A stretch of 64,000 nucleotides of DNA from Pseudomonadota bacterium (GCA_018668255.1 JABISZ010000035.1:62001-126000); one strand, 5' to 3'. Positions 5,880-12,859 are shown, numbered from the stretch's first letter. Numbers and translations are program-made. Notes: generated by a model from the letters alone, not told the origin.

Positions 5880-6686
5880 ATGAAAAATGAAAAAAGCATA
5901 CTGCGTCATTATTTTACTATTCTTAAAACCTCATCATTCGTAATTCTCTGCTTATTGAGCACTCTCGCCTATTCCAAAGACTTACCTTTATATTTCTATG
6001 GGGACATGTCCTCGAACGAGTGGTACGGAGCTATACAGGGCTTGCAAGAAGCTAATGCTCAAGGTAAATTTCTACAGCTAAACTATAAGCTCATACACAA
6101 AACGAAGCTGGACGACGTAAAGGCTGACAAACCGTATGCTGTCATATCATCGCTCTCTCCAGCAAAACTCAGACAGGCACTTTTAGCAAATCCTCAGATA
6201 CCCTTTCTAAATATAAGCTCAATTGCCGAACCTTTTTCACGTTTATGTACCCCTAACTTGTTTTATATCAGACCCCATCCTTCCTCCCTAGTCGCCGCCG
6301 AAGCCGCCTGGAAAGCCGAAGGCAGGATCGAAGCCAAAGCGGTCTTATGGCACCACAGTTTTAAAAAATATGCCGCGGCGCAGCTAAACAAACGGTATAA
6401 AAAAAATACCGACCGTCGTATGAACTCGGAATCGTGGTCTGGCTGGGCTTCAGTTAAACTTTTCTCCGATACCTTAGCCCGAAATGGTCCCGAATCAGAA
6501 ATAAGCATAGTAAATTTTCTGAAGAAGAGCCTCGCTTTTGATGGACAGAAAGGCAGAGATCTGTTTTTTAATAGTTATAACTATTTAGAGCAACCTTTAT
6601 TGGTGATCCACGATGACAAAATTGTTGCAGAAATAAGCACAAGTCAGCTACTGTCTGCTGAAAGTGGAGCGTTCTCTTGTAAATGA
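5880..6686 (+). CDS. Compact type-1 periplasmic binding protein, PQQ-pathway-associated type
   Basis: A 268-residue exported protein: positively charged start, hydrophobic stretch to about residue 31 and a cleavage-like LAYS-KD junction. The rest looks like a shortened type-1 periplasmic binding fold as in branched-chain amino acid or urea binding proteins. Evidence is the segment IPFLNISSIAEPFSRLC-to-FYIRP in the middle and a C-terminal helix-then-strand pattern (SWSGWASVKLFSDTL, LKKSLAFDGQKGRDLFF, LLVIHDDKIV). Members of this kind occur with PQQ-dependent alcohol dehydrogenase operons, together with a beta-propeller protein and ABC genes. The beta-propeller is next door, the ABC permease and ATPase are not. 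At 268 residues it is shorter than the usual 340 or so. Of three closely spaced ATGs (5873, 5880, 5887) only 5880 stays open. Ligand unknown. Confidence 0.66.
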   Translation: MKNEKSILRHYFTILKTSSFVILCLLSTLAYSKDLPLYFYGDMSSNEWYGAIQGLQEANAQGKFLQLNYKLIHKTKLDDVKADKPYAVISSLSPAKLRQALLANPQIPFLNISSIAEPFSRLCTPNLFYIRPHPSSLVAAEAAWKAEGRIEAKAVLWHHSFKKYAAAQLNKRYKKNTDRRMNSESWSGWASVKLFSDTLARNGPESEISIVNFLKKSLAFDGQKGRDLFFNSYNYLEQPLLVIHDDKIVAEISTSQLLSAESGAFSCK

Positions 6687-6748
6687 GCAGAAAGCCAAAA
6701 AGTCATTTAAAATATAGAGACATTTATCAGAGCTATAGAGGAAAAACT

Positions 6749-7693
6749 ATGAAGTTGATACTCGCTATAACTGCCATAATTGTTGCGACAAACACTATGG
6801 CAGCGACAAATCGGGCGTTCGTATCCAATGAGAGAAGCGACAGCGTTTCTGTAATCGATATTTTAACCAACAAAGTTATAAAAACGGTACAAGTTGGAAA
6901 ACGACCTCGAGGAGTAGGTATCTCTCCGGATGGGAATGAAGTCTATGTAGCAATCAGTGCCGATAACGCCATCGCAGTCCTAGATCCGGTCAAAATGGAG
7001 GTTATTAGGACATTTGCAAGTGGTGACGATCCGGAAGCGTTTGCCATACATTCCAATGGCAACCTGTACATATCAAATGAAGAAGATGCAATGGCTTCGG
7101 TCTACGATCCGAGAACGGGCGCTCTATTAGCCACCATAGACGTGGGTATTGAACCTGAAGGGGTGGCAGTTGCGCCTGATGGTACTAGAGTAGCCGTGAC
7201 AAGCGAGTCGACTAATCTCGTCCATATAATTGATGTTCCTGAACATACGATACAAAATAATGTCCTTGTAGGTGCTAGACCACGCTCAGTAGTATTCAGT
7301 AATGACAGTCAAATTATCTATGTAACCGCCGAAATTGGCGGAGAAGTAAAAAAGATAGCGGCAGATACGGGCAACCTAATAAAGAAAACGACACTTCCCG
7401 ATCAGAACGCAAAACCGAAAGATGTACTTCTCAGCCGAGATGGCAAAAATCTATACGTCGCGGGTGGTCGTGCTAATAAGATTTTCATTCTTGACGCCGA
7501 AAGCCTAGACCATAAAAACAGTATCCCAGTAGGGAAAAGAGTCTGGGGTCTAGCTCTGAGTCGGGATGGATCTAGATTATACACAACCGATGGTTTGGAC
7601 CATCAAGTCACCGTAATCGATACCAAATCAGAAAAAGTTAAAGCCGTCATCAAAGTAGGGAAATTTCCTTGGGGCATAGCACTTGACGACTAG
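6749..7693 (+). CDS. YVTN-family beta-propeller protein, PQQ-dependent catabolism type
   Basis: A 314-residue periplasmic beta-propeller. A signal peptide (MKLILAITAIIVATNTMA) is followed by about seven repeats of roughly 42 residues, each with a pattern like VSVIDILTNKVIKTVQVGKRPRGVGISPDGNEVYV. The length and repeat layout match the family found invariably near PQQ-dependent alcohol oxidation genes. I chose the ATG at 6749 because it directly starts the signal peptide and has GAGG 7 bases upstream; an in-frame start at 6683 would add 22 polar residues. It follows the binding-protein gene by 62 bases, probably in one transcript. No catalytic residues can be assigned; a scaffold or redox-partner role is guessed for the family, not shown. 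Confidence 0.88.
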   Translation: MKLILAITAIIVATNTMAATNRAFVSNERSDSVSVIDILTNKVIKTVQVGKRPRGVGISPDGNEVYVAISADNAIAVLDPVKMEVIRTFASGDDPEAFAIHSNGNLYISNEEDAMASVYDPRTGALLATIDVGIEPEGVAVAPDGTRVAVTSESTNLVHIIDVPEHTIQNNVLVGARPRSVVFSNDSQIIYVTAEIGGEVKKIAADTGNLIKKTTLPDQNAKPKDVLLSRDGKNLYVAGGRANKIFILDAESLDHKNSIPVGKRVWGLALSRDGSRLYTTDGLDHQVTVIDTKSEKVKAVIKVGKFPWGIALDD

Positions 7694-8384: not shown

Positions 8385-8921
8385 CTACCACGGTCTTATT
8401 CGGCGCAAAGTCGCCATACCGTCTCGAGCGACATGACTGACAGCCCCTCCGATATGCAAAAAAATCAGCAGCAACAGTAAGCAAGAGCTAAATTGATGAA
8501 CGCTTGTAAAAAAATCATTAAAGACGACATTCTTGCTCGCCCAAGAAGGCAGCATCAGACCAAATAGCTTTGTGCTATATCCGCTAAAAGATGAAGACAG
8601 ATAGCCCGTCATTGGCTGAATAAAAAGTAACACATAAAACCCGAAATGAACCCTCCTAGCAAACCACTGCTGCCATGGCATTACCGTTTCAGGAAAAGGC
8701 GGCGGAGCATGTCTGTATCTCCACCAAAGTCTTACCACCATAAGAAAAAAAAGGCTGAGGCCTAAAGATTTATGTAAAGCAAAAAAATATCCTCGCTCAG
8801 CACCTCTTGGCAAATCAGTCATAAACCAACCAACACAAAAAAGCGCAGCGACTAAGGCTACTATCAACCAGTGTAATAGCCCTGCTGTCTTTGTATAATT
8901 GTGTAATTTGTCTACGGTCAT
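8385..8921 (-). CDS. Cytochrome b561 (CybB-like)
   Basis: A 178-residue inner-membrane di-heme cytochrome b. Four hydrophobic segments are seen near residues 14-34, 47-66, 90-108 and 140-160. Histidines at 17, 50, 142 and 156 sit at the positions expected for two b-type hemes. The family moves electrons between quinol and periplasmic or membrane partners. Its place beside pqqA, the beta-propeller and the binding protein suggests it may carry electrons from a PQQ enzyme to the quinone pool (inference), although unlinked cytochromes b561 are common. It is transcribed toward pqqA and separated from it by the shared terminator. Length is normal for the family. Confidence 0.92.
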   Translation of the reverse strand: MTVDKLHNYTKTAGLLHWLIVALVAALFCVGWFMTDLPRGAERGYFFALHKSLGLSLFFLMVVRLWWRYRHAPPPFPETVMPWQQWFARRVHFGFYVLLFIQPMTGYLSSSFSGYSTKLFGLMLPSWASKNVVFNDFFTSVHQFSSCLLLLLIFLHIGGAVSHVARDGMATLRRIRPW

Positions 8922-9016
8922 AGTATTGTTCCATCATCCATTAATGCTTATTGAGTAGACACGAAAGACAGGAGACTCGCATATCAATCGTTCACTACAA
9001 TTATATTATTATACTG

Positions 9017-9610
9017 ATGAAATATATCCCATCTATTAAAGTGTCTTTTGTCGTCGTGATTCTGACTTCGATGACATTGTTTTTAACTGTCTTTCCAGAA
9101 AGAGCATACAACGCCGATCAGTATCACGTCGAAGTCGATAAAACGCGTCGCACTCTGACATTGTCGAACGCGGCCGGCAGGGTTCTCAAAGAATTTAAAG
9201 TTGCTTTAGGCCGCGGAGGATTGGGCCATAAGAAAGCCCGAGGAGACGGCATTACCCCTTTAGGCTCTTACATAGTGGTAGGCTTTAACGAAAAAAGCGA
9301 TTTCCATTATTTCATCAGATTAAATTATCCTAATAGTAACGATGCTCTTGCAGCATATCGAAACAACTCTATTACTTTTGAACAATTACAAAAAATACTG
9401 TCCGCCAATGTCTCAGGCGAGACCCCGCTTCAGACTACACTTCTGGGAGGGGCTATTGGACTTCATGGAATAGGTAATGAGACTGACGCAAAGCTTCTAA
9501 TGCACAGTAAATTAGACTGGACTCAAGGTTGCATAGCCTTAAAGAACCATGAGATTGAAGAACTGAGGCCTTTTCTTACCTTGGGGGTACATGTTGTAAT
9601 AAAAGAATAA
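9017..9610 (+). CDS. L,D-transpeptidase (YkuD family)
   Basis: Periplasmic peptidoglycan enzyme that makes 3-3 cross-links or attaches lipoproteins. The 197-residue form begins with a membrane anchor or signal peptide (about residues 8-27). The catalytic region is present: His150 in IGLHGIG, then His163 and the nucleophile Cys172 in WTQGCIAL. Asp80-region and G-I-T-P-L-G-S motif at 78-84 also match YkuD. The start is uncertain: the ATG at 9017 has no good ribosome site, while a TTG at 8951 opens an in-frame extension and AGGAG lies at about 8971 before non-ATG codons. The gene is 30 bases upstream of a MotA/ExbB-like gene on the same strand and heads a four-gene cassette. An ordinary housekeeping Ldt is the alternative. 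Confidence 0.88.
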   Translation: MKYIPSIKVSFVVVILTSMTLFLTVFPERAYNADQYHVEVDKTRRTLTLSNAAGRVLKEFKVALGRGGLGHKKARGDGITPLGSYIVVGFNEKSDFHYFIRLNYPNSNDALAAYRNNSITFEQLQKILSANVSGETPLQTTLLGGAIGLHGIGNETDAKLLMHSKLDWTQGCIALKNHEIEELRPFLTLGVHVVIKE

Positions 9611-9640
9611 TCAGACCGTCACTAGCGCAAGGAGTCATTT

Positions 9641-10351
9641 ATGGTCGAGAGTTACCGCAACAGCCATCAATTTTTTTTGATGTGGTTAATCGCGATAGGG
9701 GTAATGCAGTTCCTTATTTTTCTCGGTTTCGATAACGGTTATCTTGCTGTCGTATTCAAGAACGATCAAAGTCATATTACAAAAATTATAGCCAGCATAT
9801 TTTTATTTGGTTCTATGCACTGCGGGCTACGATTAAAACAACTGTGCTTAGAGTTAAATCCAGTTATTTCTTTAGAAGAAAAATTACTTGGCCTAGATCT
9901 TTATGTACGTAAAGATCTTTATGATTTTAGCGCCACCACAAAAGGTATTAGCTCTGATTACCTAAAAAAACTGTCTATTGATGACACCAGTCAAAGTCAT
10001 TCAAGTAGTATCAACTCCGCAACTGAAGTATTAATCGCTCAGGCTAAAAAAGGCCATGAGTCGGCCTGGTTTTTGGTAGATCTTCTCATCAAGCTTGGTT
10101 TGTTGGGAACTATTATTGGCTTTATTTTAATGCTTAGTTCGGTTAGTCAGGCTGACACGCTCGACATTCAGGCGATGCAGATAGTACTCAAGGACATGAG
10201 CGGTGGTATGGGCACGGCCTTGTATACTACATTGCTCGGACTATCAACCAGTCTTCTACTCTCTGGGCAGTACCTTTTAATGGATAAATGCGCAGACGAT
10301 CTAATAGAACGGTTACTTAATATTGCTAGTCTAGTCTCCAATAAGGAATAG
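9641..10351 (+). CDS. MotA/TolQ/ExbB-like proton channel subunit
   Basis: A 236-residue inner-membrane protein. Four hydrophobic segments lie near residues 11-30, 48-64, 146-167 and 189-213, with a cytoplasmic stretch between the second and third. The last two carry the MotA_ExbB signature: GLLGTIIGF followed by GMGTALYTTLLGL. Such proteins form pentameric stators that convert proton flow into motion of a partner anchored in the cell wall. AGGAG precedes the ATG. The next gene, 11 bases on, encodes the expected single-TM partner. It does not resemble true MotA, TolQ or ExbB closely enough by eye to name it; it is not beside flagellar, tol or TonB genes. Zorya defence (ZorA) is excluded for lack of the long ZorA tail and of zorCD/E. 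Confidence 0.78.
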   Translation: MVESYRNSHQFFLMWLIAIGVMQFLIFLGFDNGYLAVVFKNDQSHITKIIASIFLFGSMHCGLRLKQLCLELNPVISLEEKLLGLDLYVRKDLYDFSATTKGISSDYLKKLSIDDTSQSHSSSINSATEVLIAQAKKGHESAWFLVDLLIKLGLLGTIIGFILMLSSVSQADTLDIQAMQIVLKDMSGGMGTALYTTLLGLSTSLLLSGQYLLMDKCADDLIERLLNIASLVSNKE

Positions 10352-10362
10352 GCTGAGAAGCA

Positions 10363-10968
10363 ATGGCATTCAATAACGCATGGAAAAAAAAGCGCGGCAA
10401 TACCGATCCCTTCACTGATTTATTATTCAATGCTCTACTTGGATTTACTTACTTATTTCTTATAGCAGTGATGTTTATGAACCCTGTAGCTGAGACGGGA
10501 ATCATAGAGGCCAAAGCCGAATATATCATAGCGTTAAATTGGCCTGATAATGACCCCAATGACATTGATATTTGGGTAGAAGACCCAGTCGGAAATATTA
10601 TATGGTTTAAAAACAGAGAGGCCGGCTTAGTACACTTAGATCGAGATGACCGAGGAAATATCAATGACCTCATAAAATTTAATGAGCAACAAGTTAGCAA
10701 CCCTTTAAACCAAGAACTAGTCACTATAAGAGGGATAGTTCCAGGTGAGTATGTCGTGAATATTCACTATTATGAGACCGTTACCAACACGCCAGTTGAT
10801 GTGTCGGTAAAGATTTCCCGCGTCAACCCTACTCTTGAAGTAGCTTATTATGGGAAAATGACCCTTGAGAAAAAAGGTGTTGAAAAAACCGCTGTGAGAT
10901 TCTATATCTCAAAACAAGGAAATATTGAACGCATTAATAAAATAGAAAAAAGCATTCTGCTTTTATGA
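10363..10968 (+). CDS. MotB/ExbD-like single-TM partner with periplasmic beta-sandwich-like domain
   Basis: A 201-residue membrane protein. A charged N-terminus (WKKKRGNTD) leads into one TM helix at about 19-41 that starts DPFTDLLFNALLGF; Asp15 and Asp19 are placed like the proton-carrying Asp of MotB, TolR and ExbD. The periplasmic part (about 50-201) is not OmpA-like. It contains WPDNDPNDIDIWVEDPVGN and GLVHLDRDDRGN, a pattern resembling the YfaP/DUF2135 beta-sandwich family with acidic loops that could bind calcium. It is 11 bases after the channel gene and 20 bases before the next gene. The pair is a plausible stator complex whose load is not peptidoglycan in the usual way. Function unknown. 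Confidence 0.7.
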   Translation: MAFNNAWKKKRGNTDPFTDLLFNALLGFTYLFLIAVMFMNPVAETGIIEAKAEYIIALNWPDNDPNDIDIWVEDPVGNIIWFKNREAGLVHLDRDDRGNINDLIKFNEQQVSNPLNQELVTIRGIVPGEYVVNIHYYETVTNTPVDVSVKISRVNPTLEVAYYGKMTLEKKGVEKTAVRFYISKQGNIERINKIEKSILLL

Positions 10969-10988
10969 GAAAATTTAGGAGCTGAATA

Positions 10989-11498
10989 GTGACTTTAAGT
11001 ATTCTTGGCCTCACTCTGTCATACGTTGCAATGGCGATTCTTTTGCTTGTTTTTTTACAGTATACGACTCTTCGCTGGGGGCAAAAATCAGCGGCAATCG
11101 TAACTATTTCCGCCTTATACTTTGTGGTTTACACTTCATATTCTGAGCTTTTAGGCTGGCCAGCTGATAGTCCTTTACCTGCACACTTTAGGTACCATTA
11201 TTCTGTAGTAGAGGAACCATCAAAAAGCGGCCCCGCCAGAGCTGGTTCTATTTATATTTGGATTACCGAACTAGTCACAGAAGAAGGTTTCCAAAAACCT
11301 CGCGCTTATAAGGTGGCCTACTCTCAAAAAACTCACGAAAAACTAGACCTCGCCCAAAAAAAGACACAGAAAGGTATTAAGCAACTCGGAGAAGTCGTAA
11401 AGAAGAAAAAGTCTGGTGGGGTAGGTGATGTACTTAAAAAAGGCAGTGTTACATTAAATTTTTATGATGTGGTAGGCATGAAAATCGATCATAAATAA
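10989..11498 (+). CDS. Small two-TM protein of the stator cassette, unknown function
   Basis: A 169-residue protein I do not recognise. Two hydrophobic segments at about 5-27 and 34-52 are followed by a soluble part with a beta-like stretch (GSIYIWITELV) and a Lys-rich helix (about 113-145, with KKTQKGIKQLGEVVKKKK). The start is a GTG at 10989, supported by AGGAG 7 bases before it. It follows the MotB-like gene by 20 bases and ends 2 bases before the convergent tilS stop, so it closes the cassette. Constant spacing and strand suggest it is a third subunit of the channel complex. No domain can be named. Confidence 0.62.
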   Translation: MTLSILGLTLSYVAMAILLLVFLQYTTLRWGQKSAAIVTISALYFVVYTSYSELLGWPADSPLPAHFRYHYSVVEEPSKSGPARAGSIYIWITELVTEEGFQKPRAYKVAYSQKTHEKLDLAQKKTQKGIKQLGEVVKKKKSGGVGDVLKKGSVTLNFYDVVGMKIDHK

Positions 11499-11500
11499 AG

Positions 11501-12859
11501 TTAAGAAACTTTAATACCCCGTTCATAGATAGACAATTTCAAAATAAAAGAAAAGCCAACCTTCCCCTTTTCTGCTAAATATTTTTTGCTTATTCCATAG
11601 CCGCAGACAGCGACAATCTCGTCACCATTTTTCATGATCGGGACAAAAGCTCTCTCCCATGGAGGAACATTCCATTGTTGAAAAAGTTTCTTTAAATCAT
11701 GGTGGAAGCCGCTCCCGGCAGGCTGAAATTTTTCCCCTCCTTTACGGAAGCATATTTTAATGTTTTCGGGGGAGAACTTGCTGGGATCCAAAACTTCGTA
11801 GCCAGCACTTTTCTCAACCTCCAATTTTCCCCAAGGCATAGACACGGATAACCCAGTCCAATCAAGAGAAGGGCACGTATATGTTGGCAACTCATGCATT
11901 AAATACATCTGGTTACGATACAACCTAACCTCCACTCCTCCCCACTTAACAACGGGACTTCGCTTACGAGTAGAATTCAAGATTCCTAAAATGGCAAGTA
12001 CATGACTTTCTCTGGGCACTGGAAAATCAATCCGTTCCAGTAACCTTTTTACCAGAAAACCATGAAGAGAATCTGGGAAAAATTTAAAAATTCCTACGGA
12101 ATAAACACCCTCAGAAATAACACAAGCGTCAATTTTATGATCAAAAATTTGGTTTAACCCGTCAACAATTTCCCGCTGTCTGAGCCCGACACGATATATT
12201 CCATCGAGAGCCGAAGGATAAATTTTCTCTAACGCTGGCAGCCCCGTTTTTCTAATATTATTTCGCAGGTACTTATCAGAAAAATTACTAGAGTCTTCTA
12301 CCCATTTTAATTTTTCTTCTCGAGCATAATCTTTTATACACGCTGCCGAAACATTCAATAAAGGACGCACCAAAGAACCTTGACCAAAGCTGCGGACCTC
12401 TCTCATGCCTTTCAGACCATGAGGTCCAGCACCTGACATTGCATGATGAATAATTGTTTCAACTTGATCGTTCTTATGGTGAGCCGTGAGCAATGTGCTA
12501 TTGGCATCAACATATCTTTCCAGAATTCCATAGCGTGCAGTTCTAGCCCATGCCTCTTCACTCTGGTTGACCTTACGAAGAGTAGCAACTCGAACAACAG
12601 AGCACTCTAGATTATAGAGGCTGGCTATTTCCTTACAGTGAGCGCCCCATTCTAAGCTTGAAGGACTCAAGCCATGATCAACGTGGATTAAAGACACCGA
12701 AATACTTTTATACTCTCTAACGAAAGACACAACCAAATCGAGCAGCACGGAGCTATCGAGACCACCGCTATAGGCCACCACAAGTCGGGAGCTACCTAAA
12801 TTTTTGATCTTCGCTGAAAGATTAGCCCGAAAAGTTTCAAACGTTAAATGAGTCTTCAC
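11501..12859 (-). CDS. tilS: tRNA(Ile)-lysidine synthetase
   Basis: Adds lysine to C34 of the CAU-anticodon tRNA(Ile) so that it reads AUA. The N-terminal PP-loop ATPase motif SGGLDSS is at residues 31-37, followed by HVDHGLSPSS and ARTARYGIL, typical of TilS; the 452-residue length fits the long, multi-domain gammaproteobacterial form with C-terminal substrate-binding domains (KGGEKFQPAG region near 375). It is the last gene after accA on the minus strand, the usual gamma order accA-tilS, and meets the plus-strand membrane-protein gene head to head with a 2-base gap. Start ATG at 12859 gives the normal N-terminus. Confidence 0.95.
   Translation of the reverse strand: MKTHLTFETFRANLSAKIKNLGSSRLVVAYSGGLDSSVLLDLVVSFVREYKSISVSLIHVDHGLSPSSLEWGAHCKEIASLYNLECSVVRVATLRKVNQSEEAWARTARYGILERYVDANSTLLTAHHKNDQVETIIHHAMSGAGPHGLKGMREVRSFGQGSLVRPLLNVSAACIKDYAREEKLKWVEDSSNFSDKYLRNNIRKTGLPALEKIYPSALDGIYRVGLRQREIVDGLNQIFDHKIDACVISEGVYSVGIFKFFPDSLHGFLVKRLLERIDFPVPRESHVLAILGILNSTRKRSPVVKWGGVEVRLYRNQMYLMHELPTYTCPSLDWTGLSVSMPWGKLEVEKSAGYEVLDPSKFSPENIKICFRKGGEKFQPAGSGFHHDLKKLFQQWNVPPWERAFVPIMKNGDEIVAVCGYGISKKYLAEKGKVGFSFILKLSIYERGIKVS

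Follow-up and report, generated by a model that had tools for sequence, protein, structure and literature searches.

A MotA/TolQ/ExbB-type channel gene, its partner and a third membrane gene recur together in bacterial chromosomes and phages

Our bioinformatics analyses reveal a set of three genes, A, B and C, encoding a channel subunit, a single-TM partner with a periplasmic domain and a two-TM protein, which tens of bacterial genomes and more than 100 virus contigs share in this order, far above chance. It is this A-B-C triad, and not the four genes that include a neighbouring L,D-transpeptidase-family gene (Ldt), that forms the core unit. The A-B pair belongs to an already known superfamily, but neither the domain of B nor subunit C nor the phage distribution has, within the reach of our checks, been recorded for it before. 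Bacteria are known to use ion-driven 5:2 motors to move, to maintain the outer membrane, to import nutrients and to defend themselves, and we lean towards the reading that A-B-C is a PMF-driven, Tol/Ton-like inner-membrane complex with a new third subunit. If this is true, viruses bring their own energy-transducing envelope machine, carried on hundreds of contigs and unnamed in the cultured phages that were inspected. The triad offers a minimal A for structural work, a new periplasmic domain in B and an uncharacterised third subunit, and Rhizobium phages such as 16-3 provide cultured models for direct tests of function. An earlier note on this DNA had proposed an apparently undescribed conserved set built on a MotA/ExbB-type channel, and the co-occurrence of A-B-C in genomes and virus contigs bears this out.

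The stretch of DNA that was analysed as a whole (the window) comprises 64,000 nt of a Pseudomonadota bacterium (GCA_018668255.1 JABISZ010000035.1:62001-126000), and all positions are counted along it. The ORFs lie on the plus strand in the order Ldt, A, B, C with intervals of 30, 11 and 20 bases (Table 1), and their coordinates confirm the earlier description of four same-strand genes with these gaps, as the Pfam matches do for the MotA_ExbB signature in A and the YkuD domain in Ldt. The start of Ldt is placed at the ATG at 9017, with an in-frame TTG at 8951. A genome-wide domain search showed A to be the sole MotA_ExbB gene in the window and placed none of this genome's ExbD/TolR or OmpA-domain genes inside it; the TolQ/ExbB-type genes and the four ExbD matches all lie on other contigs, and the sole OmpA-domain match is on contig C102. 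The neighbourhood was also said to be free of Tol, Ton and Zorya genes, and none is found near A-B-C. A promoter scan returned fewer sites than were found in shuffles. Elsewhere in the window, positions 5880-7693 are partly matched by the PQQ-dependent alcohol dehydrogenase ABC substrate-binding family, and the gene after them encodes a PQQ-catabolism-associated beta-propeller protein with a score above its cut-off.

Table 1. Coordinates of the genes and features discussed, along the window unless a locus is named
Feature	Position	Strand	Basis
Ldt, YkuD L,D-transpeptidase-family	9017..9610	+	Pfam YkuD E=4.8e-16; N-terminal hydrophobic signal-like segment
A, MotA/TolQ/ExbB-type channel subunit, 236 aa	9641..10351	+	Pfam MotA_ExbB E=4e-9
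TM3-TM4 core of A, with the Gly and Thr typical of the superfamily	10064..10279	+	Conserved residues in alignment
B, partner with one TM helix and a periplasmic beta-sandwich, 201 aa	10363..10968	+	AF2 mean pLDDT 88
Codon of Asp15 in B, a carboxylate that may carry the ion in some members of the bacterial clade	10405..10407	+	Asp census
Codon of Asp19 in B, a carboxylate that may carry the ion in phage members and in the majority of the family	10417..10419	+	Asp census
Beta-sandwich of B, residues 54-192, DUF2135/YfaP-related, not OmpA	10522..10938	+	AF2 and sequence
C, two-TM with alpha/beta domain, 169 aa, GTG start	10989..11498	+	AF2 mean pLDDT 88
Soluble domain of C, motif IYxW ... PRAYxLPYS	11166..11468	+	Alignment of 80 C proteins
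Cytochrome b561 gene, divergent, bounding the set	8385-8921	-	
tilS-like gene, convergent, bounding the set	11501-12859	-	
Proteases near triads	L081:3244-4143, L084:7528-8220, L075:8989-9633, L147:1950-2828, L131:7106-8095		

On bacterial chromosomes, A, B and C stand in that order at nearly all of the 37 loci that were compared by tblastn with the four window proteins, a set that spans the window's own family, another family of the same class and one family of another class in the same phylum with genomes of 6-9 Mb. Within the window's family, B is present in 26 of 36 genomes, and the operon often lies in conserved synteny with tilS, accA and dnaE. A profile search of 398 Pseudomonadota genomes found full-length B in 16, the remaining matches covering only short segments within large proteins, and a C gene follows full-length B in 16/16; a C profile search of whole genomes recovered it in 15 of these, and in the sixteenth (L075) C fell below the whole-genome threshold but scored E=1e-10 on the locus. 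The membrane genes were not found widely apart from one another, either in these genome searches or in IMG/VR. The exception is one genus (two genomes, L064 and L079) in which A-B is kept with no C detected nearby; C is therefore not indispensable there. In both genomes A-B adjoins 460-aa proteins that are weakly similar to A and of another MotA_ExbB type. Two-component systems are further recurrent neighbours of the bacterial triads. At six bacterial loci (L033, L034, L052, L054, L056 and L078) a VWA-FHA protein is encoded directly after C; that the window lacks it suggests an optional partner.

The L,D-transpeptidase gene shows a narrower distribution. It lies on the same strand just upstream of the triad at 15 distinct linked loci, its HG...TxGC motif with the catalytic Cys is kept in all linked homologues, and its similarity to the LdtF/DpaA/YafK model is weak, far below the cut-off. 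The Ldt-A spacing is 30-55 bases in the closest relatives and about 480-860 in others, an interval that often holds a DUF302 gene. A device in which the motor supplies or switches on Ldt, or detects what Ldt produces, would draw on this position just upstream and on the short spacing in the closest relatives, but searches of the triads in the other class, of those in other gammas and of phage neighbours detected no Ldt homologue, and in many relatives a DUF302 gene or some 500 bases separate Ldt from A; we regard such a wall device as very doubtful. As a core member Ldt was rejected, since its linkage does not reach beyond loci close to the lineage of the window, and it is better described as a lineage-specific neighbour, possibly on the same transcript as A-B-C. 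The four-gene neighbourhood of the earlier note is thus conserved in its A-B-C part and restricted in its Ldt part; and because Ldt is linked only near this lineage, the suggested stator, driving or sensing the wall by way of Ldt, would be a lineage-specific link at most.

It is among phages that the triad is carried bare. B was found by tblastn in 27 of 50,697 named phage records, all from Rhizobium or Sinorhizobium phages with genomes of several sizes, from 59 to 171 kb. In the four that were inspected (RHph_I1_9, 16-3, RHph_I1_18 and RHph_N3_13) a short MotA_ExbB-related gene is followed by B and then by a C-like gene, all annotated without function, and all three genes are present in 20/21 loci related to 16-3. 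A B profile scan of 2.9 million IMG/VR contigs gave 360 relatives; at the best 80 of these loci A was present in 79 and C in all 80, ordered and on one strand, the one locus without A beginning at a contig end. The A scan gave 380 relatives, the best 80 of which had all three genes in 78 cases and A-B only in 2, and the C scan, for which a closer subset of C sequences was used, found A and B partners wherever the contig extends far enough. These scans share contigs and are independent in query, not in sample. The median triad spacing was -3 bases in the A-scan loci and -1.5 to -3 in the C-scan loci, stops and starts mostly overlapping, and same-strand gaps of about -3 bases suggest that A-B-C is translationally coupled. 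Triad contigs reach 527 kb, and of 18 large contigs 10, among them the ones of 527, 328, 242 and 202 kb, match a terminase large-subunit model; the viral status of contigs with no such match is IMG/VR's classing, and these may be fragments or use another terminase family. Neighbouring genes on triad contigs include terminase, head protease, endolysin, primase and PhoH, and no category dominates when the two genes on each side of the virus triads are assigned to PHROGs. Genes for trypsin-like or subtilase proteases lie close to phage or prophage-like triads, a few genes away, in groups not related to each other (Table 1), and the rIIA and rIIB lysis-inhibitor families occur near virus triads in single cases only.

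The triad is a phage module. Since it occurs as a bare A-B-C in very different gene neighbourhoods, it can probably function without other partners, and the simplest reading of what it does there is an effect on the envelope of the infected cell. A different reading is that of a regulated ion leak with no motor, through which the phage triad would alter the membrane potential and so time lysis or exclude other phages. Phage A is a minimal channel with a median of 170 aa and little cytoplasmic part, an endolysin gene lies a few genes upstream in one contig group, the rII families are among the neighbours and no mechanical target has been identified for A-B-C, all of which would suit a leak. On the other hand, the conserved soluble domains of B and C would be superfluous for it, lysis genes adjoin a minority of triads only and the bacterial chromosomal copies do not lie in lysis cassettes, so that we consider a mere leak quite unlikely and keep to that of an envelope complex driven through A and B.

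By its profile matches and conserved residues, A is a member of the MotA/TolQ/ExbB superfamily. The window protein scores 36.7 bits against PF01618 (cut-off 22.9; E=4e-9), and 2/4 Rhizobium-phage A proteins exceed the Pfam MotA_ExbB cut-off. Among cell and phage A proteins, G153, G156 and T197 are invariant and T157 is present in 26/30, the invariant residues being located in TM3 and TM4. Hydropathy judged with the homologues gives about four TM helices, the window copy alone scoring two strong ones. Bacterial A proteins are mostly 226-265 aa long and those of phages are shorter mainly through a reduced cytoplasmic loop. In a profile search of the PDB the top match was a 696-aa chain with a MotA/TolQ/ExbB domain, followed by MotA, TolQ, ZorA and ExbB; in NCBIfam, the TolQ, ExbB and MotA models gave no match to A and the weak matches were led by two ZorA models with 18 bits (cut-offs 500 and 100). 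In a tree with TolQ, ExbB, MotA and ZorA-like proteins as outgroups, most cell and phage A proteins form a clade of their own outside TolQ, ExbB and MotA (support 0.75 with three Rhizobium phages, 0.95 without them), and the grouping within one of these three that the earlier note had named as a counter-indication was not seen. The very short or divergent A proteins of L074, L075 and L081 are placed with ZorA-like proteins and other outgroups on branches for which support is not established. The five ZorA-like outgroups were drawn from a ZorA family search over 200 genomes, which itself gave no match above the cut-off.

These affinities bear on whether the triad is a minimal Zorya-like device or a phage-borne rival of one, A being a cut-down ZorA and the output defence in bacteria or, in phages, counter-defence or the exclusion of rivals. 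ZorA models and a PDB chain of ZorA size are the top matches of A outside its own family, A lies on the ZorA-like side of the tree rather than the TolQ/ExbB side, and phage carriage would fit competition between phages or counter-defence. The ZorA matches are, however, far below the curated cut-offs, and the ZorA affinity in the tree is without established support. Membership of Zorya was rejected on two structural grounds, since A has no ZorA tail (236 aa in the window, a median of 170 in phages) and B has no ZorB peptidoglycan-binding domain, both of which are needed for Zorya defence (PMC11890865). In the window's family, moreover, the bacterial copy lies in housekeeping synteny (tilS, accA, dnaE), unlike a defence island. 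A Zorya-type function therefore appears unlikely to us, although ZorAB remains the system to which A has its closest profile similarity and with which the triad shares a phage connection.

The B subunit carries the feature expected of an ion-driven partner, an aspartate at the start of its TM helix. The AlphaFold2 model (mean pLDDT 88) has a helix at residues 16-38 and a beta-sandwich at 54-192, and hydropathy, models and the positive-inside rule agree on a predicted N-in orientation with the domain in the periplasm. The structure modelling left out five alignment rows from annotated records and used virus-contig rows. Asp15 and Asp19 both stand at the helix start of the window protein, as had been claimed, and 14 columns are invariant in an alignment of 31 cell and phage B proteins. 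Asp is found at position 15 or 19 in 73/73 aligned B proteins. Asp19 is present in 54/54 virus proteins, so that its conservation holds for these, but the 19 bacterial or prophage-like proteins have both residues in 12 cases, Asp15 only in 5 and Asp19 only in 2. Because the two positions lie one helical turn apart, the functional Asp may have shifted along one helix face in some members of the bacterial clade. The helix opens with PFxD, similar to ExbD.

The periplasmic domain of B has no direct match in the family collections: Pfam gave nothing at E<=1, including PF02472 (ExbD/TolR), PF00691 (OmpA) and PF09906 (DUF2135), and PHROGs gave no family beyond weak phrog_1735 matches. The absence of PF00691 agrees with the earlier note, which had B lacking an OmpA peptidoglycan-binding domain. 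The relation to YfaP/DUF2135 that it proposed finds support in a VIT protein, a segment of which aligns with B at 39% over about 82 residues and overlaps a DUF2135 match (E=3.8e-9), and in the pattern DxDxWVxDPxG ... PGxYxVxxHYY common to both proteins; membership of the family is unproven, since PF09906 is not matched directly. Unlike YfaP/DUF2135 proteins, B falls below the Pfam DUF2135 model and has its domain fused to a TM helix. A fold search of the PDB returned nothing for B at E<=0.001 and likewise nothing for C, and the leukocidins and ribosomal proteins that headed the lists were rejected as carrying no meaning (TM-scores of about 0.15-0.3, large rmsd). A search of BFVD beside these gave seven partial matches at E<0.001, mostly to uncharacterised phage proteins.

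For C, no significant family was found in Pfam, NCBIfam or PHROG. Its model (AlphaFold2, mean pLDDT 88) shows helices at 3-25 and 30-54 followed by a small alpha/beta domain, which hydropathy, model and the positive-inside rule together place, as predicted, in the periplasm. In 80 cell and virus C proteins, P77, W91, P104 and R105 are nearly invariant, and the full alignment has no stretch conserved enough for a profile scan. A fixed C-terminal LPxxxPxK motif was tried and rejected, being present in 39/80 only. The two-TM protein with a Lys-rich tail of the earlier note is recognisable in the two helices of the model, but the tail is a trait of the window's genus and not of the family. In six genomes of the window's family (L057, L059, L060, L061, L062 and L063) C is doubled in tandem and the copies have diverged, which suggests a heteromeric C in these species.

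Several lines of evidence are in favour of A, B and C acting as one complex: their co-inheritance as a set, with scans recovering the partners, overlapping genes and correlated trees (see below), the domain of A with its Gly and Thr residues, the Asp at 15 or 19 in every aligned B and a predicted topology that fits. The sequences themselves show the gene set, its co-inheritance, the superfamily to which A belongs, the conserved carboxylate and the lack of an OmpA domain. Against it, the position of the Asp varies across the B family, A-B occurs without C in the two genomes of one genus, and phage neighbours are too varied for a consistent clue to the output. MotAB, ExbBD and ZorAB are 5:2 complexes (PMC9389320, PMC11890865), and it is by analogy with such systems that we infer complex formation, a 5:2 stoichiometry, ion flow and a role for C. 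Several A subunits would ring single helices of B, and protons, or another ion, would pass via the B carboxylate (Asp19 or Asp15) and the conserved Thr of A, a passage that would move the periplasmic beta-sandwich of B. C, as a membrane hairpin with a periplasmic domain, could couple this movement to a target in the periplasm or cell wall, standing in the place of TolA or TonB, though unrelated to either, as a coupling or regulatory partner. Phages would presumably express the bare A-B-C in the infected cell, whose envelope would be changed or protected, and some bacteria keep the triad on the chromosome, where the cytoplasmic domain of A is larger and the adjoining genes, for wall, sensor or VWA-FHA proteins, vary with the lineage. 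The fuller proposition that tailed phages, some on contigs of more than 200 kb, have all the genes for a rotary-type envelope motor that is driven by protons and whose third subunit belongs to a new family, and that the bacterial chromosomal form is a descendant or sister of it, is in our judgement evenly balanced.

Compared with known systems, the triad resembles TolQ-TolR-TolA and ExbB-ExbD-TonB in combining a MotA_ExbB channel, a partner with one TM helix and an Asp within the membrane, and a further envelope protein as third member, but differs from them in that B has a DUF2135-like beta-sandwich and no ExbD/TolR model match, C is a two-TM hairpin unrelated to TolA or TonB and A lies outside both clades. 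With MotAB and PomAB it shares the roughly four TM helices of A and an N-in, single-TM B with a helix-start Asp; unlike in these stators, B has no OmpA domain, A does not group with MotA and phage A proteins, mostly below 200 aa, are too short for the torque-generating interface. A survey of MotAB homologues has described a broad generic ion transporter (GIT) group with diverse domains of undefined role (PMC12505986), which is likewise made up of non-flagellar A-B pairs with variable periplasmic parts; that survey covers bacterial genomes, DUF2135/YfaP is not mentioned in it and no phage triad or subunit C was found there. A literature search, with preprints and most subscription papers outside it, found no description of phage-borne MotA/ExbB triads.

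Separate trees of A, B and C each unite the bacterial chromosomal copies in one clade, with support of 0.86, 0.99 and 0.996, and because this holds in each tree the chromosomal form separated once from the phage forms. Pairwise distances in the three trees correlate with r=0.72-0.93, a correlation to which shared ancestry contributes. The virus set in the trees was picked by similarity and the root is weak, so that the trees give no direction of transfer. Azospirillum megaplasmids (L082, NZ_CP059450) also carry an A-B-C set, with two B places per record, and in the A tree the Azospirillum protein branches between the phage and chromosomal forms.
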